Notes under the pieces: model-generated
The model's database searches: none
What the model saw: the letters and a program-made list of their open reading frames with translations, nothing else
What the model was told of the DNA's origin: nothing
Made by a program: the position numbers and the translations under genes
Shown: piece after piece, positions 148-8,329 of the stretch
How the letters are laid out: each line of letters begins with the position of its first letter
How positions within the stretch are numbered: the stretch's first letter is position 1
NCBI RefSeq assembly: GCF_000430625.1
Contig: NZ_KE387176.1
Coordinates: forward strand, 1 to 44,941
Length of the DNA stretch: 44,941 nt
Direction: 5' to 3'
From: Aneurinibacillus terranovensis DSM 18919
GTDB lineage: Bacteria > Bacillota > Bacilli > Aneurinibacillales > Aneurinibacillaceae

Positions 148-176
148 TTGACTAAAATACTAGCTCATTTTATAAT
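148..176 (+). promoter_or_regulatory. Sigma-A promoter of the lyase/dehydrogenase cluster
   Basis: TTGACT (148-153) and TATAAT (171-176) are separated by exactly 17 bp, which is near the vegetative consensus. Transcription would start near 183, leaving a leader of about 190 nt before the first lyase gene. It is the only strong promoter seen ahead of the cluster. Confidence 0.75.
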
Positions 177-196
177 CACATTGTATTTCCTTATAT

Positions 197-220
197 GAAC
201 ACAAAGTTCGTAATACGAAC
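197..220. promoter_or_regulatory. Overlapping palindromic operator
   Basis: GTTCGTAATACGAAC (206-220) is a perfect palindrome with arms GTTCGT/ACGAAC. Its left half also pairs with an upstream GAAC (197-200), giving GAACACAAAGTTC. The site lies just downstream of the predicted transcription start, a classic repressor position. No regulator gene is present in the cluster, so the cognate protein is unknown. A related element (GAAC-AAA-GTTC) follows the last gene of the cluster at 8330. Confidence 0.6.
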
Positions 221-372: not shown

Positions 373-1662
373 ATGCGAATCGAGCAGGATGCTTTCGGTA
401 AAGTGTCATTATCCGATAAAGTGCTTTATGGAATTCAAACGGTTCGTACTGTGGAAAATATGTCGTTTTCCGGTAAAAGGTTGTCAGAATTCCCTGAGTA
501 CATTCGCGCACTTGCTCAAGTTAAGCGAGCTTGTGCTTTGGCGAATCTGAGTGCTGGAGTGATTTCTGAGGAACACTGTAACAAGATTACCACTGCCTGT
601 GACCAGCTCATTCAAGGCAAACATCATGATCAATTTCCTGTTGATATTTTTCATGGTGGCGGTAGTATCGGGGTCAATATGAATGTGAATGAGGTCATCG
701 CGCATCTTGCAGGAGATGATGTCCACCCTTTTGATCATGTGAATGCTTCGCAATCCACAGCGGATGTATGTCATACCGGTCTTCGTATTGCACTCATAGC
801 AATGCTCGAACCGTTAGACCAGGTGGTAAAGGAACTTATCGCTACACTGGACAAACAAGCGGAATCTTTTCAATCGATTCGGACGATTGCAAGAACATGC
901 TGGCAGGATGGGATGAGTGTTCCGTTATCCAGTTTGTTTGAAGGATTGTCTTCTGCTCTAAAACGAAGAAGAAGATTGCTCATGTGCTCGTCAGATGATA
1001 TCCATTCCATTAATTTGGGCGGAACGGTGATTGGATCAGGAGTAGGGGCTAAAAAAGAGTACCAATCAGCGATTATACGTGAACTACGAAACGTTACAAA
1101 TCGCTCACTTAAATGGCGAGAGAATTTATATGATGCTGCACAGTATCCAGATGATATAGCGCATCTTTCTTCACAAGTCAGGATTCTTGGAAGCCTTCTC
1201 ATGAAGTTTGCGAACGATCTTCGTCTTTTGTCCTCGGGACCCGAAACGGGATTATCAGAATTATGTTTGCCTGCTGTACAAGCTGGTTCTTCCTTTTTCC
1301 CTGGGAAGGTAAACCCGGTGATCGCTGAAACGATGATGCAGTGTAGCATGCTTATTGCAGGTAATGATTCTGTCATTCAATCAGCTGTGGAAATGGGAGA
1401 AGTTCATCTCAATATTTGGGAAGGGATGATAGGGGCTTTGTTAATGCAAAACATTAAGATGCTCACCCAAGCTTCAAAAATCTTCCATGAGCGATGTGTG
1501 GCAGGCATTCAGCCGAACACAGAACAATGTGAAACATATGCAACAAGTTTTATTCCAGTAGTAGTGGAGTTGAAGGAAAAGTATGGATACCAGCAGGTAT
1601 CGAAGTGGTTGAAAGAAATGAGCCATGATGAATTAAGAAGAAAAATACGAGAGGAGAAATAA
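373..1662 (+). CDS. Divergent aspartase/fumarase-superfamily lyase (short paralogue)
   Basis: A 429-residue member of the class II fumarase/aspartase superfamily, which cleaves succinyl C-N or C-O bonds to release fumarate. Family marks are YGIQTVR (19-25), VNMNVNEV (101-108), SQST (126-129) and the catalytic loop GSSFFPGKVN (305-314) with base Ser306 and carboxylate ligands Lys312 and Asn314. Compared with true aspartases (about 470 aa) it has lost roughly 15 residues before HPFDHVN. The conserved GTS Thr is Ile99, the STND Asn is Ala130, and the RTH/RTQ position is Cys176. In aspartase these positions contact the second carboxylate and the amino group, so the substrate is probably altered or the protein is a non-catalytic partner. 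AGGTGAG precedes ATG 373. Three bases separate its stop from the aldehyde dehydrogenase, so they are co-transcribed. Confidence 0.8.
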   Translation: MRIEQDAFGKVSLSDKVLYGIQTVRTVENMSFSGKRLSEFPEYIRALAQVKRACALANLSAGVISEEHCNKITTACDQLIQGKHHDQFPVDIFHGGGSIGVNMNVNEVIAHLAGDDVHPFDHVNASQSTADVCHTGLRIALIAMLEPLDQVVKELIATLDKQAESFQSIRTIARTCWQDGMSVPLSSLFEGLSSALKRRRRLLMCSSDDIHSINLGGTVIGSGVGAKKEYQSAIIRELRNVTNRSLKWRENLYDAAQYPDDIAHLSSQVRILGSLLMKFANDLRLLSSGPETGLSELCLPAVQAGSSFFPGKVNPVIAETMMQCSMLIAGNDSVIQSAVEMGEVHLNIWEGMIGALLMQNIKMLTQASKIFHERCVAGIQPNTEQCETYATSFIPVVVELKEKYGYQQVSKWLKEMSHDELRRKIREEK

Positions 1663-1664
1663 AC

Positions 1665-3164
1665 ATGAGCACAATCCAACCAGCAAAACTAGAATGGGCC
1701 AAGGAATGGTTAAAGGACACAAAAAAGTTTTACATTGGAGGTCAATGGATTAAGGGCATAACAACATCCAGCTCGATTAATCCAGCCAATGGTCAAGAGG
1801 TAGGGACGTTCTACGATAGTACTCCAAAACACGTCGATCAAGCAGTTGAAGCAGCAAGAAAGGCTTTTACAGGCCAAGAATGGGGAAAAATGAGCCGCAA
1901 AGAAAGAGCGAAAAAACTGCATGCGATTGCTGCTGTGATTCGTGAACATCAAGCAGAGTTAGCGACGTTAGAGTCTTTAGATAACGGAAAGCTATATAAA
2001 GAAGCTTTTGTTGATGATATGGGCGAAGCAGCTGATATTTTCGACTATTATGCCGGATGGACAGATAAATTTTATGGTGAAAATAATCCGGTGGATGGAG
2101 ATTTTCTAAGCTATACCGTACGTCAACCTGTAGGGGTTTGCGGTCAAATTGTTCCGTTTAACTTCCCATTGTTAATGGCAGCATGGAAAATTGCTCCTGC
2201 ACTTGCGATGGGAAATACGGTTATTTTAAAACCTTCGGATAAAACATCGTTTTCTGCGATTCGATTCTTCGAACTTGTGGATGAAGCGAATATCCTGCCG
2301 CCAGGTGTTATCAACTTGGTTCTAGGGGGAGCGGAAGTAGGCTCTGCTATTAGTAACCACAATGGAATTGATAAAATCACCTTTACAGGAAGCACAAACA
2401 TCGGTAAGCAACTGGTACGTGATTCCGCTAATTCAAACTTAAAAACGGTTACATTAGAGTTAGGTGGAAAGTCACCAAATATCATTTTTGATGACGTGCC
2501 AAATCTAGATTTTGCGATTGAACGCTCTTTCTATGGACTCTTTACTCATAAAGGCGAAAAATGTTCGGCGCCGACAAGACTGTTTGTACAACGCGGCATT
2601 TATGACAAAGTGATAGACGGAATTGTGAAATTTGCCAGCTCGTATAAGCTGGGCGATCCGTTTGATCCAACAAGTGATCAAGGACCCCAATGCTCAGAAG
2701 AACATATGGAGCGCATCCTTGGCTATATTCAAAGCGGTATCGAAGAAGGGGCTAGAGTCGTTGTTGGTGGAGAGCGTGATGTAGAAGGTGAAAAAGCAAA
2801 TGGATTCTATATCAAGCCAACGATCTTTGCTGATGTTACAAACGATATGAAAATTGCTAGAGAAGAAATTTTTGGTCCTGTTCTTTGTATTATTCCGTTT
2901 GATACGGAAGAAGAAGTGGTACAAATGGCCAATGATACGATTTATGGTTTAGCAGCAGGGCTTTGGACAAGAAATATTGCCCGTGCACAACGGGTTGCAA
3001 ATCAACTAGAAGCGGGTCAAGTATTTATTAACCGTTATGGTTGCTATGATTTCGCAAGTCCATTCGGCGGATTTAAACAAAGTGGATGGGGCAAAGAATA
3101 TGCGATTCATTCTTTAGAGTCTTATACAAAAACAAAAGCGATTTGGATCTACACAGCAGAATAA
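1665..3164 (+). CDS. NAD(P)-dependent aldehyde dehydrogenase
   Basis: A 499-residue ALDH-superfamily enzyme that oxidises an aldehyde to its acid. Visible motifs are PFNFP (oxyanion Asn166), TFTGSTNIG (cofactor fold, about 239-247), LELGGKSPN with general base Glu265, GEKCSA with nucleophile Cys300, EEIFGPVL, and the C-terminal SPFGGFKQSGWGKE. Length and motifs are full, so it should be active. It starts at ATG 1665 behind GAGGAGA, tightly coupled to the upstream lyase and 14 bp ahead of the alcohol dehydrogenase. Together these suggest oxidation of an alcohol or amino-alcohol side product of the lyase step. The substrate cannot be read from the sequence. Confidence 0.92.
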   Translation: MSTIQPAKLEWAKEWLKDTKKFYIGGQWIKGITTSSSINPANGQEVGTFYDSTPKHVDQAVEAARKAFTGQEWGKMSRKERAKKLHAIAAVIREHQAELATLESLDNGKLYKEAFVDDMGEAADIFDYYAGWTDKFYGENNPVDGDFLSYTVRQPVGVCGQIVPFNFPLLMAAWKIAPALAMGNTVILKPSDKTSFSAIRFFELVDEANILPPGVINLVLGGAEVGSAISNHNGIDKITFTGSTNIGKQLVRDSANSNLKTVTLELGGKSPNIIFDDVPNLDFAIERSFYGLFTHKGEKCSAPTRLFVQRGIYDKVIDGIVKFASSYKLGDPFDPTSDQGPQCSEEHMERILGYIQSGIEEGARVVVGGERDVEGEKANGFYIKPTIFADVTNDMKIAREEIFGPVLCIIPFDTEEEVVQMANDTIYGLAAGLWTRNIARAQRVANQLEAGQVFINRYGCYDFASPFGGFKQSGWGKEYAIHSLESYTKTKAIWIYTAE

Positions 3165-3178
3165 GGGAGAGAAACAGC

Positions 3179-4297
3179 ATGAAGATGAAAGCAGTTGTTA
3201 TGACAGAAATTGGAGCACCACTTCGTATTGAAGAGGTCGAACTTGCAGAGCCAAAGGCGAATGAGGTTCTCGTTAAAATCGAAGCGACAGGGGTTTGCCA
3301 TAGTGATTTAAATGCCCTGCATGATGAAACTACTCCAATCCCTACGATTCTTGGGCACGAAGGTTCCGGTATCGTAGTGGAAGTAGGACCAAACGTAAAA
3401 AATGTTAAGATTGGCGATAAAGTAGCACTTAGCTGGGTTCCGTTCTGTGGTACATGTGAATTTTGCCAGACCGGACAGGTCAATCTTTGTGAGTCTGCCT
3501 TTGGTCCGATGTTTGAAGGAACGCTACTTGATGGAACAACTCGTCTGAGCTTAAACGGTGAAAAAGTATATCATAACTCGTTGCTTTCCACTTTCGCTGA
3601 GTACACAGTCGTACCCGAAATGAGCTGCGTGAAGCTTCCTGATGAAATGCCTTTTGCTCAAGCATCCTTGATTGGTTGCGGGGTAGCAACTGGATACGGA
3701 GCAGCAGTCAAAGCGGCAAAAGTAACACCGGGTTCAACCGTTGCTATATTTGGAATTGGTGGCGTAGGTGTTAATGCTATCCAAGGTGCTCGCATTGCTG
3801 GAGCATCGAAAATTATTGCGTGTGATTTAAAAGAGCAAAACTTAGAAATTGCGAAAACGTTTGGTGCTACTCACACTGTGAATGTAGGGGAAGGCAACGT
3901 AGTAGAAATGTTGAAAGAATTAACAGGAGGCTTTGGCGTACATTTCGCTATCGACTGCTCAGGAAACACCAATGCAGCTTCTACTGCTTGGCAGGCAACA
4001 AGAAAAGGTGGAACAACCGTTGTGGTCGGTGCCTTTAACCCAAAAAGAGAGTTGACGCTTCCGGCAAACGGATTCCATCGTGTAGGGAAAAATTTGAAAG
4101 GAAGTTTCTATGGTGATGTTCATCCTTTCCTTGATTTCCCGATTATTGCTGAACTTTATTTAGATGGCAAGTTCAAATTGGATGAGTTAGTTCTTTCTCG
4201 CATTCAGTTAGAAGATATCAATAAGGCATTTGACAGTTTCCACAATCAATGTTGTGTTAATGTAGGTCGCACAGTGATTGAATTTGGAGGAAAGTGA
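3179..4297 (+). CDS. Zinc-dependent alcohol dehydrogenase (MDR family)
   Basis: A 372-residue medium-chain dehydrogenase that converts an alcohol to the aldehyde consumed by the neighbouring ALDH. Catalytic zinc ligands are Cys40 (GVCHSD), His60 (GHEGSG) and Cys167 (GCGVATGYG). Structural zinc ligands are Cys90, Cys93, Cys96 and Cys104. The NAD site is FGIGGVG (191-197). The overall pattern is that of the class III-like/AdhC group. I chose ATG 3179 because it follows AAGGGAGAGAAAC and begins the conserved MKMKAVV; an earlier in-frame start would overlap the ALDH. An intrinsic hairpin directly at the stop separates it from the next gene. Confidence 0.9.
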   Translation: MKMKAVVMTEIGAPLRIEEVELAEPKANEVLVKIEATGVCHSDLNALHDETTPIPTILGHEGSGIVVEVGPNVKNVKIGDKVALSWVPFCGTCEFCQTGQVNLCESAFGPMFEGTLLDGTTRLSLNGEKVYHNSLLSTFAEYTVVPEMSCVKLPDEMPFAQASLIGCGVATGYGAAVKAAKVTPGSTVAIFGIGGVGVNAIQGARIAGASKIIACDLKEQNLEIAKTFGATHTVNVGEGNVVEMLKELTGGFGVHFAIDCSGNTNAASTAWQATRKGGTTVVVGAFNPKRELTLPANGFHRVGKNLKGSFYGDVHPFLDFPIIAELYLDGKFKLDELVLSRIQLEDINKAFDSFHNQCCVNVGRTVIEFGGK

Positions 4298-4328
4298 TAT
4301 AGGGCGTTTTGCCCTATATCTTCTTTGT
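4296..4328 (+). terminator. Hairpin after the alcohol dehydrogenase
   Basis: A perfect 10-bp stem, GATATAGGGC (4296-4305) and GCCCTATATC (4311-4320), with a GTTTT loop is followed by TTCTTTG. It starts inside the ADH stop codon. The T-tract is imperfect, so it may only attenuate transcription into the downstream genes. Confidence 0.6.
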
Positions 4329-4332
4329 TCAT

Positions 4333-4860
4333 ATGAAACAGTTACTTTTTATCGTTTTTTTACAAGTTGTCTACGTCTCATTGATGAGCGTACGATTTAT
4401 TTTAATGGTTAAAGGAATCCGTTATATGGCGGCATTTATCAGTGCTGTCGAAATCGGTATTTATGTAGTTGGGTTTAAAATTGTATTAGACAATTTAAAT
4501 GATCCCGTAAGTCTTATTGTATATTGCTTGAGTTATGGACTAGGGATTTTGATTGGCACCAAGATAGAGGAGCGCCTTGCTCTGGGCTATGCGACGATTC
4601 AAGTGGTTACGACAAAGACAGACATATTCATATCAGAACAATTGCGTAAAAAAGGGTATGGAGTGACAACTTGGCAAGGAGAGGGACGAGAAGGCTCGCC
4701 TCGTACTGTTTTGTCTATCGTGACTCATCGTAAGCGACAATTCATTCTTTATAAGGAGATTCTTTTAATGGATCCGGAAGCATTTATTGTTAGCTATGAA
4801 CCGAAACACTTCCATGGGGGATTTTATCATTTTCCGCATAATGGACTAGGAGAGGAATGA
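4333..4860 (+). CDS. UPF0316/DUF2179 membrane protein
   Basis: A 175-residue protein with three N-terminal membrane helices (about residues 2-20, 28-45, 52-70) and a soluble C-terminal half, matching the YebE/UPF0316 family with a DUF2179-type domain. The molecular role is not established. I place the start at ATG 4333 (MKQLLFIV), which gives the usual family N-terminus. An upstream TTG at 4309 lies inside the terminator stem. No good SD precedes 4333, so expression may be low. Its place between catabolic enzymes and a chemoreceptor hints at a membrane function related to the pathway substrate. Confidence 0.75.
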   Translation: MKQLLFIVFLQVVYVSLMSVRFILMVKGIRYMAAFISAVEIGIYVVGFKIVLDNLNDPVSLIVYCLSYGLGILIGTKIEERLALGYATIQVVTTKTDIFISEQLRKKGYGVTTWQGEGREGSPRTVLSIVTHRKRQFILYKEILLMDPEAFIVSYEPKHFHGGFYHFPHNGLGEE

Positions 4861-4863
4861 ATT

Positions 4864-6924
4864 ATGAAAAGAAGAAAAATAAAAATAAAGACAAAAATGA
4901 TTGCAGCTTTTTTGCTTATCACGTTAGTCCCCATTTTAACGATAAGTTCCTTTATCTATAAAACGATCAACGATCAAATTAAGGATGATTTTATAAGAAC
5001 AACGGAAAAGGAAACCGCCCAAGTAGATAAAGGGATTGAATTGTATCTTGAGACAATAAAAGAAAATACAAAACTGCTTTCTACGAATCCTGTAGTTATG
5101 CAGGCTAATCAATCTATTACCTCTTATGTACAAGCGAAAAGTAATAAAATGACCCCGTCTAAGAATGGAGGCATTGAATCAGCCATTTATAACGTGTATA
5201 AAAATTTCGCTACTTCTCATCCTAATATCGCTTTTGTATACATGGGAACAGAACATGGGGGATATGTTCAATATCCAGAGGCAATGAATGCTGAATTTTA
5301 TGATCCTAGACAGAGACCGTGGTATAAAGCAGCTAAAGAACACCCGTCAGATGTTATCCGGACAAACGCTTATCAATCTGTCCCTGATCCTTCTGTTATT
5401 ATAGGTACAGTTAGCGTTGTAAAAAATGAGCGGGGAGAAATTATTGGTGTTCAAGGATTAGACGTCTCACTTTCTAATTTTACAAATATTATAAAAAACA
5501 TTCATATTGGTAAAACAGGCTTTCTTATGGTTGTACAGGGGGATGGGACGATTTTGGCTAATCCAAAGAACCTTGCTACCAATTTTAAGAATATTACAGA
5601 TTTAAAAATTAACGGATTCAATAATGTATCCTCACTTGATAAAAAATTACTTGAAGTTCAATATAATGGAAAATATTATGTAGCTAATATCTTTACTTCT
5701 CCTAAAATAGGCTGGAAATATATTTCCTTCATCGAAAAGTCGGAACTGAATGAAAACTCTGCTCATATTAATATGATTATTTTACTTATTACGATCGTAT
5801 TTGTTTTGCTCGCTCTTATTGTCGCCTATCGTATGTCGTTACAATTTTCCAACCCAATTGTGTTAACAGAAAAATATTTAAATGTCATTGCAACGGGGGA
5901 TTTATCTCAGCCGTTCCCCGAGAGTTTACTCAAGAGAAGAGACGAATTTGGAAACTTGGCAAATTCAATTCATCAGATGACGTGTAAACTTCGACATCTA
6001 TTAGAACGAGTAAAAGAAACTTCTGAACAAGTAGCTGCTTCATCTCAACAATTCAATACAATTGTAGAGCAAACGAGTAAGGCCACAGAGCAAATTACCA
6101 ATTCGATTCAGGAGCTAGCGGCAGGTACTGAAAAACAGGTTGTAAGTACAAGCAAAACTCGTGAATTTGTTTCAGGTATTTCAAGCGGAATGGAACAAGC
6201 GGCGATTTCAGTAGAAGGTGTCTCTACCCTTTCTCTTACTACAAATCAAAAAGCAAGGAGAGGATTAGAACTTGTAAATCAGACGATCGAGCAAATGAAT
6301 AAGATAAATGAAAAGGTAGTAGAAACAGCCAACGTGGTACGAACACTCGAAGAGAAGTCTAAATGCATCGGGGGAATTACTACGATCATCACTGAAGTTG
6401 CGAACCAAACAAACTTACTCGCTTTAAACGCTGCTATAGAAGCGGCAAGAGCCGGGGAGCAAGGAAAGGGATTTGCAGTTGTGGCAGATGAAGTCAGAAA
6501 ATTAGCAGAACAATCGGGTTTAGCAACAGATGAAATTCGAAAAGTTATTGAAGAGATTCAAACGGAATCAGGGAAAGCTGTACGATTTATTGATGATAGC
6601 TCAGCTGCATTTTATCAAGGACTAGAAATGGTTCAACAGACAGGTAATTCTTTTGCGGATATTGTGAAAATGGTCGAAGAAGTATCGAAGCAAACGCAAG
6701 AAGTTTTTGTAGTGGTTGAAGAAGCCAATACAGGTTCGCTACATATGGTCGATATGATAGGGAATGCGAACTTGATTTGGGAGCAATCAGCAGTAAATAC
6801 TCAACATATTGCATCAGCAGCGGAGGAGCAGTATGCATCGATGGAAGAAATCGCATCATCAGCTGAGTCACTTAATAAAACGGCATATGATTTACGAAGT
6901 ATGGTTAATCACTTTAAATTGTAA
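4864..6924 (+). CDS. Methyl-accepting chemotaxis protein (dCache type)
   Basis: A 686-residue transmembrane chemoreceptor. It has an N-terminal membrane helix (about 13-32), an extracellular double-Cache-like sensor (about 35-280, with [12 protein letters not shown] and GVQGLDVSL), a second membrane helix (about 298-320), a HAMP linker (about 322-375) and the cytoplasmic signalling domain. The hairpin tip carries the conserved [20 protein letters not shown]. Its ATG is three bases after the UPF0316 stop. Double-Cache sensors often bind small organic acids, amino acids or amines, so its position inside the lyase cluster suggests that the cell swims toward the substrate of this pathway. The ligand is inferred only. 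Confidence 0.93.
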
Positions 6925-6940
6925 TCAGGGAGGGTTATAG

Positions 6941-8329
6941 ATGATGCGGATGGAAAAGGATGCATTAGGTGGATTGGAAATAGATGATGATGTTTATTAT
7001 GGCATTCAAACAGTACGAGCTTATGAGAATTTTTCGATCTCCGGGCAGAGTATAGAGATGTATCCTAAATTGATTTGGAGTATGGCAGTTATTAAAAAAT
7101 CAGCAGCGCTTGCAAACCGAGATATTGGTGTTCTTGAAAGTGAGATAGCGGATGCTATTTGTGCGGCGGCAGACGAAATTATGAACGGGCGTATGAAGTC
7201 GCAGTTTCCCGTCGATGTGTATCAAGCAGGTGGCGGGGTTTCTGTAAACATGAATATCAATGAGGTCATTGCCAATCGAGCAAATGAGATGCTGACTGGA
7301 CATAAAGGATATGATCGTGTGCATCCTAATGTGCATGTCAACATGTCTCAATCTACAAATGATGTATTACCGAGCGCGATTAAGCTTGCCTGCTTTCTTT
7401 ATATACAAGATTTACTTCAAAGCTTACATATAATTGAGAACGCCTTGGCAAAGAAAGTAACCGAATTTCGTGACGTTGTTAAAATTTCTAGGACTTGTTT
7501 ACAGGATGCCGTACCTATTACACTTGGACAACAGTTTAGTGGATATCACTCTTTTTTTTGTAGACAAATTGAAGAGGTGGAAACATTAAAAAAGGTGTGC
7601 CTTCCTCTCGTTATGGGAGCTACTGCTGTTGGAACAGGAATCGGTTCCTATCCGGGTTATATGGAAAAGATATATCAATATTTACCCCATATTTCAGGGA
7701 TACCCGTTACAAAAGAAAATAATTTCTTTGATGGTCTTCAGAATGCCGATGTGTACCTTAAAATTTCGTCTGCATTAAAATGCCTAGCAACAGGACTATC
7801 CAAGTTAGCCAGTGATTTGAGGATGCTATCATCAGGGCCTAGAGCGGGATTTGCCGAAATTACATTACCAGCAGTACAACCAGGATCATCGATTATGCCA
7901 GGGAAAATAAATCCTTGTATACCGGAGATGGTGATTCAAGTTTGTTTTGAAGTGTATGGACATGACCAGACGATTACACTGGCTGTTGATCGAGGTGAGT
8001 TGGATTTAAACATATGGGAACCTATCATACTGAAAAATTTATTTGCATCATTTCAGCTACTAACCAACAGCATTGTATTGTTTACAAATAAATGTATTGA
8101 AGGAGTTAAAGCTAACAAGGAGATTTGTAAACAATACGCAGAGACCTCCTTATCACTTTCAACGGTATTATCATCATTATTTGGGTATGAAACAGCCTGT
8201 GATATTGCAAAAGAGGCTTATGAAAGAGGACTGACGATTAAGGAGTTAGCTATTGAAAAAGAAATGCTTATGGCAGAGGAAGCAGAACAGTTACTAAATC
8301 CAATCATTCTAACTGGATTGGATAAATGA
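6941..8329 (+). CDS. Aspartase/fumarase-superfamily lyase (full-length paralogue)
   Basis: A 462-residue class II fumarase/aspartase-type lyase with standard length. Conserved segments are YGIQTVRAYENF, VNMNINEVIANR, VHVNMSQSTND (131-141), LSSGPRAG and catalytic loop GSSIMPGKIN (315-324: base Ser316, Lys322, Asn324). The Thr of the aspartase GTS motif is Val100, and the RTH/RTQ residue is Cys186, the same class of change as in the first paralogue; STND is intact. This argues for elimination from a modified substrate rather than plain L-aspartate. SD GGGAGGG precedes ATG 6941 (ATG 6944 is possible). It is likely the catalytic partner in the cluster. Confidence 0.88.
   Translation: MMRMEKDALGGLEIDDDVYYGIQTVRAYENFSISGQSIEMYPKLIWSMAVIKKSAALANRDIGVLESEIADAICAAADEIMNGRMKSQFPVDVYQAGGGVSVNMNINEVIANRANEMLTGHKGYDRVHPNVHVNMSQSTNDVLPSAIKLACFLYIQDLLQSLHIIENALAKKVTEFRDVVKISRTCLQDAVPITLGQQFSGYHSFFCRQIEEVETLKKVCLPLVMGATAVGTGIGSYPGYMEKIYQYLPHISGIPVTKENNFFDGLQNADVYLKISSALKCLATGLSKLASDLRMLSSGPRAGFAEITLPAVQPGSSIMPGKINPCIPEMVIQVCFEVYGHDQTITLAVDRGELDLNIWEPIILKNLFASFQLLTNSIVLFTNKCIEGVKANKEICKQYAETSLSLSTVLSSLFGYETACDIAKEAYERGLTIKELAIEKEMLMAEEAEQLLNPIILTGLDK

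Follow-up and report, generated by a model that had tools for sequence, protein, structure and literature searches.

A lyase, aldehyde dehydrogenase and alcohol dehydrogenase gene set of Aneurinibacillus terranovensis that looks like a bacterial betaine-alcohol pathway

A six-gene cluster of Aneurinibacillus terranovensis DSM 18919 was analysed by comparative genomics. The six genes resemble a bacterial betaine-alcohol pathway not described before, with homoserine betaine from the betaine lipids of algae and fungi as the most likely substrate. From sequence comparison it is considered quite probable that the substrate is some betaine alcohol, first oxidised and then cleaved by the first lyase (lyase 1). 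There is about an even chance that this alcohol is homoserine betaine, which the alcohol dehydrogenase (ADH) and aldehyde dehydrogenase (ALDH) would convert to aspartate betaine and lyase 1 to trimethylamine and fumarate. Somewhat less confidence is placed in a complete bacterial route for the DGTS head group, in which a flavoenzyme resembling AGPS (alkyl-DHAP synthase, ether-forming) opens the ether and a new class of trimethylamine-lyase makes the fumarate. In algae, fungi and some bacteria starved of phosphate, betaine lipids take the place of phospholipids, and seawater contains homoserine betaine as a dissolved osmolyte (PMC9969633, PMC13403184). Homoserine betaine occurs as a real metabolite, and so does the head group of DGTS, glyceryl-trimethylhomoserine (PMC13403184, PMC11711679). 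No pathway for the catabolism of DGTS or homoserine betaine was found in the literature searched.

Gene cluster and proposed reactions

The window, the whole stretch of 44,941 nucleotides that was analysed, carries the six genes at positions 373-8329, all on the + strand (Table 1). The ADH start was taken as the ATG at 3179 from the reading of ribosome-binding site and ATG, and the start of the DUF5698/DUF2179 protein is likely the ATG at 4333 rather than the TTG at 4309. The terminator-like hairpin following the ADH gene possibly divides the cluster into two transcription units, of which lyase 1, ALDH and ADH may form one and the remaining genes the second. The window starts at base 1 of its contig, so that the assembly leaves only 372 bases upstream of lyase 1 and cuts off the rest of that flank.

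Table 1. Features of the cluster and its upstream region
Feature	Position	Strand	Basis
Sigma-70-like promoter TTGACT-17-TATAAT, 11/12 consensus	148..176	+	consensus scan only
Weaker palindrome copy, 20 bp from the 206-220 site	186-200		same motif
Palindrome GTTCGTAATACGAAC, probable IclR-family operator	206..220	strand-less	motif comparison across loci
Lyase 1, aspartase/fumarase superfamily, 429 aa	373..1662	+	domain/family searches, residue mapping, tree, AF2 model
Aldehyde dehydrogenase (ALDH)	1665..3164	+	NCBIfam profile search
Zn-dependent medium-chain alcohol dehydrogenase (ADH)	3179..4297	+	family and domain matches
Terminator-like hairpin 3' of ADH	4296..4320	+	sequence scan
DUF5698/DUF2179 membrane protein, role unknown	4333..4860	+	domain match
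Chemoreceptor, dCache_1 sensor domain	4864..6924	+	domain match
Lyase 2, 462 aa, with FumaraseC_C	6941..8329	+	domain match, residue mapping, tree

The proposed scheme, in which the substrates and reactions are all those we infer, assigns candidate genes to each catabolic step. The Zn-ADH would oxidise the alcohol of homoserine betaine (2-trimethylammonio-4-hydroxybutanoate) to the aldehyde, which would be converted by the ALDH, related to betaine-aldehyde dehydrogenases, to aspartate betaine (trimethylammonio-succinate). Lyase 1, the proposed aspartate-betaine trimethylamine-lyase, would then release trimethylamine and fumarate with Ser318 taking the C3 proton, and the fumarate would pass to the TCA cycle or to malic enzyme. 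Oxidation is placed before elimination because only the beta-carboxylate made by the ALDH would render the C3 proton acidic. If true, the scheme would place a new trimethylamine-lyase class within the aspartase/fumarase superfamily, and the route could be a new biological source of the amine. Genes for the handling of trimethylamine were not identified.

The sensor domain of the chemoreceptor is 47% identical to that of a receptor of Brevibacillus thermoruber (locus L041) and shows only weak similarity to the dCache domains of histidine kinases. It keeps the RxRPWY motif and has Ala at a position occupied by Asp in amino-acid sensors, as would suit a carboxylate ligand that lacks N-H.

Residues and clades of the two lyases

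Both lyases matched the Lyase_1 domain (PF00206) with AspB as the nearest relative, and both carry the SS-loop with the catalytic Ser318 by which aspartases are recognised. The scores were below the cut-off for the aspartase equivalog TIGR00839 (357 bits for lyase 1 and 541 for lyase 2, cut-off 681) as well as for the NCBIfam model fumC_II (308 and 482 bits, cut-off 665). The lyases were mapped onto AspB of Bacillus sp. YM55-1, whose residue numbering is used. The alpha-carboxylate pocket of AspB consists of Thr187, Met321, Lys324 and Asn326, and His188 and Asn142 also contact the amine (PMC11744663). The mapping revealed that Ile99 of lyase 1 stands at Thr101 and a Cys at His188, while Ser318, Lys324 and Asn326 are retained; further changes are Asn142Ala, Ser102Gly and Met321Phe, and the C-terminal FumaraseC_C domain is absent. 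In lyase 2, Thr101 is replaced by Val and His188 by Cys, with Asn142, Ser318, Lys324 and Asn326 retained. The aspartase amine site (Thr101, Asn142, His/Gln188) accordingly reads Ile/Ala/Cys in lyase 1 and Val/Asn/Cys in lyase 2.

These changes extend through both families. The replacements Thr101 to Ile, Asn142 to Ala or Ser and His188 to Cys were present in all 36 lyase 1 sequences (the window and 35 relatives), as were Thr187, Lys324 and Asn326; Ser318 is kept, Ser102 is Gly or Ala, and Phe at 321 is invariant or nearly so. The eight lyase 2 sequences have Val or Ile at 101 and Cys at 188 and keep Asn142, and canonical enzymes have T101, N142 and H or Q188. Recurring as they do in 36 and 8 sequences, the altered states are not due to chance. 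In the tree, the 36 lyase 1 sequences form a clade (support 100/99) separate from aspartase and fumarase, and lyase 2 forms its own clade (99/84) outside the aspartase clade. The AlphaFold2 model of lyase 1 (mean pLDDT 87) has the aspartase/fumarase fold, with 36% identity to AspB in the structural match.

These results confirm what the sequence-only reading had described, the retained serine loop and Lys/Asn ligands, the replaced Thr and the Cys at the His/Gln site; it had overlooked the changes at 102, 142 and 321 and the absent FumaraseC_C domain of lyase 1. It had also suggested modelling of the lyases on aspartase structures and had proposed an altered specificity, which is supported. Since the alpha-carboxylate ligands are kept and the former NH3+ pocket is now apolar, the substrate of lyase 1 is probably still a substituted succinate, and the loss of polar amine contacts is as expected for a bulky leaving group without N-H. 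Between the N- and O-substituted succinyl compounds that had been allowed, the evidence points to the former, which would give fumarate and an amine.

Lyase 1 is like AspB and the class II fumarase FumC in fold, serine base of the SS-loop and alpha-carboxylate ligands, and the lyases might on this likeness be ordinary paralogues feeding the TCA cycle. This is highly improbable, given the invariant loss of amine contacts, the separate clade and the separate aspartase-like and fumarase-like genes of the host genome, which were placed in the canonical clades. Lyase 1 differs from AspB and FumC by T101I, N142A/S, H188C and M321F, by the lack of FumaraseC_C and by its gene neighbourhood. Ergothioneine lysis was also considered and was rejected: ergothionase (ergothioneine trimethylamine-lyase) shares with lyase 1 the proposed elimination of trimethylamine from a betaine, but it has another substrate and is not aspartase/fumarase-like, its sequence resembling HAL/PAL/TAL (PMC13405746).

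Other lyases with Cys188 that keep Thr101 and Asn142 were found in separate clades (L073-L078, L080, L086, L096, L130). Their hosts are Pseudomonas/Caballeronia, Streptomyces/Brevibacterium and Shinella, and they represent further uncharacterised specificities.

Conserved neighbours and the order of the steps

The neighbourhood of lyase 1 was compared over the loci found by one scan of the genomes of 84,980 species, which gave 33 loci in the lyase 1 clade, mostly of Bacillales; two more came from plasmids, and 49 aspartase/fumarase loci served as controls. The trio of lyase 1, ALDH and Zn-ADH is fixed in Bacillota (31 loci including the window, against 0/49 controls). ALDH orthologues (52-72% identical, and 60-72% within the trio) adjoin lyase 1 in 33 other loci and ADH orthologues (65-88% identical) in 30. 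Lyase 1 itself is rare: among 398 sampled Bacillota only the genome of the window has a clear member, and it was found in none of 14 relatives of the same order (0/14), where only canonical lyases of 31-38% identity occur. The sequence-only reading had looked to a conserved co-occurrence of all six genes. This holds in full for the trio and in part for the DUF2179 protein (14 loci) and lyase 2 (5-7 loci), but the chemoreceptor stands beside lyase 1 in only two loci, the window included. Its view of a catabolic cluster belonging to no described pathway agrees with the literature searched. Malic enzyme is present at 12 lyase 1 loci, which fits fumarate as the product. Lyase 2 orthologues (69-71% identical) lie directly 3' of ADH in L046, L047, L048, L065 and L067; lyase 2 probably acts on a related substrate, for example a less methylated or opposite-hand one, as the second lyase of the cluster, and is the weakest step of the scheme. 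The lyase 1 loci with ABC transporters add an enolase-superfamily enzyme, SSADH and Fe-ADH, which are superfluous in the proposed scheme.

The loci outside Bacillota revealed exchanges at the first oxidation. In Ensifer the order is lyase, ALDH and an aldo/keto reductase (AKR) that replaces ADH, and the operon of Obscuribacter (L069) reads 2OG oxygenase, lyase and ALDH, with no ADH nearby. A plasmid of Vibrio pelagius carries BCCT, SDR, AGPS-like, FGGY and lyase genes (Ile101/Ser142/Cys188) and an ALDH of 53% identity. As the first oxidation is swapped (Zn-ADH, AKR or 2OG oxygenase) and ALDH and lyase are mostly retained, the order alcohol or ether, aldehyde, acid, lyase is favoured. The reverse order, with the lyase acting first on a succinate substituted at N or O and the alcohol or amine so released being oxidised by ADH and ALDH, had been proposed from the sequence and would suit the gene order lyase-ALDH-ADH and the altered amine site. 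It is now judged improbable, since in L069 (without ADH) and in Ensifer (with AKR after ALDH) the first enzyme is exchanged and ALDH stays, and since betaine transporters and an ether module suggest a quaternary amine, whose product trimethylamine is no ADH substrate.

The 2OG-Fe(II) oxygenase (HalD-like, weak) lies 5' of lyase 1 in L069:44-904, L066, L068 and L070, in metagenome-assembled genomes (MAGs) of Melainabacteria, Binatota and Deltaproteobacteria, and is a candidate ether or N-alkyl hydroxylase. L066, a contig of 3.5 kb, and L070 have the oxygenase and no adjacent ALDH. Near the Ensifer lyase-ALDH-AKR locus, a cupin of the DMSP-lyase family with its own ABC transporter was observed (L129:28147-28818).

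The best NCBIfam model of the window ALDH among 42 families was betaine-aldehyde dehydrogenase TIGR01804, at 539 bits against a cut-off of 669. The choline oxidation systems GbsAB and BetAB likewise oxidise the alcohol and then the aldehyde of a quaternary amine with a related ALDH, but they have no lyase, and the window ADH is of the zinc medium-chain type. A role in choline, carnitine or gamma-butyrobetaine handling, in which ADH and ALDH would produce glycine betaine or an acid like it, would agree with this ALDH match and with the BCCT and OpuAC transporter families, which carry these compounds. Such a role is very unlikely, because none of the three needs a succinate-type lyase, choline is no glycerol ether, and the fixed partner of the ALDH is the lyase.

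Transporters, regulation and the ether module

The lyase 1 loci fall into types with OpuAC/ProV ABC transporters (14-15 loci), BCCT (9) and MFS with IclR (10), and at the thresholds used one of these transporters lies near lyase 1 in 31/32 other Bacillota loci, against 0/49 controls. For the OpuAC proteins the match is OsmF, which binds glycine betaine, and for the ATPase it is ProV; a histidine kinase with a dCache domain and a regulator of the NtrC type are often present in these ABC-type loci. Taken together, the transporters, the AGPS-like module and the IclR regulon, none of which the sequence-only reading could see, indicate a quaternary-ammonium substrate. At L038:14989-17559 of Peribacillus sp. 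R9-11, an in-frame fusion joins a truncated lyase 1 and a truncated BCCT transporter, probably as the result of a deletion between adjacent genes.

Palindromes resembling GTTCRYAATRYGAAC before lyase 1 were the best motif match in 14/14 IclR-type loci and 0/16 other lyase 1 loci, and orthologous loci have paired palindromes 20 bp apart. A degenerate operator pattern occurs exactly twice in the 4.25-Mb genome, once at 206-220 and once 5' of an MFS gene of another contig (C2); its reversed control occurs once. The C2 carrier is 75% identical to the MFS of Peribacillus-type loci and is adjoined by an IclR gene (72% identity). It is probable that the IclR regulator acts at 206-220 and that the window cluster and the C2 carrier form one regulon. 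Some 730 bases separate the MFS gene from the end of C2, and the two contigs may be neighbours; a comparison of the window head with the C2 tail gave a 49-base match at 78%, which is not a join. An AGPS-like gene and BCCT were not found in the host genome, where OpuAC gave a partial match only and the search for an L064-type OpuAC and a close MR/MLE found neither. The host would thus need free homoserine betaine, taken up by the MFS carrier, whose family is not betaine-specific.

An FGGY kinase, an SDR resembling KduD and an FAD enzyme are encoded in several lyase 1 loci of relatives. An AGPS-like enzyme had been predicted from the idea of a DGTS ether head group before the search was run, and AGPS was indeed the best structural-database match of the FAD enzyme (E 4e-50), with E 1e-28 for the runner-up, a putative oxidoreductase, and 1.6e-27 for glycolate oxidase. 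HHHG is present in 20/20 sequences read and AGPS His300, Arg419 and Tyr578 in nearly all; these residues and the HHH motif presumably have their AGPS roles. The module was found in 11/29 lyase 1 Bacillota genomes against 3/398 random Bacillota (Fisher p 6e-12, kinship ignored). In many of them module and lyase cluster are contiguous: the AGPS-like gene lies near the cluster in L037, L039, L042-L044 and L052, and wider flanks place it there also in the genomes of L050, L040 and L055. Where lyase 1 is missing, the module still adjoins transporters of the BCCT or OpuC type, and it has a glycerol-3-phosphate-responsive antiterminator beside it in Enterococcus, Streptomyces, E. coli and others.

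Glycerol, betaine and ether together indicate glyceryl-trimethylhomoserine, which is released by a lyso-DGTS lipase (PMC11711679). In the relatives with the module it would be phosphorylated, oxidised at C2 to the alkyl-DHAP form and split at the ether by AGPS chemistry in reverse, giving DHAP and homoserine betaine. The FAD enzyme differs from AGPS in being bacterial, of about 500 aa and encoded in catabolic operons with FGGY kinase and SDR, and in its proposed ether cleavage instead of formation. If true, this would be a possible O2-free enzymatic opening of a glyceryl ether. The same order of steps could serve another quaternary or sulfonium alcohol, such as the head group of DGTA or a dimethylsulfonio analogue, as the transporters and module fit any glyceryl-ether betaine and the Ensifer locus has a gene of the DMSP-lyase family nearby. 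This alternative is given a modest chance, well below that of homoserine betaine; the fully conserved Thr187, Lys324 and Asn326 point to a carboxylate on the carbon bearing the leaving group, which acids derived from DGTS have and those from DGTA lack, so that head groups of the DGTA type are the less likely substrates.

The E. coli ygc operon (ygcU, ygcW, ygcE, ygcS, ygcQR, ygcP; L128:4730-13908), for whose genes no function was found in the literature searched, shares with the module an AGPS-like HHHG enzyme (ygcU), an SDR (ygcW) and an FGGY kinase (ygcE). It also has an MFS, an ETF (ygcQR) and a glycerol-3-phosphate antiterminator (ygcP), but no lyase-ALDH-ADH trio. The likeness suggests a testable role for the operon, if the proposed ether cleavage is true, as a possible glycerol-ether catabolic operon.
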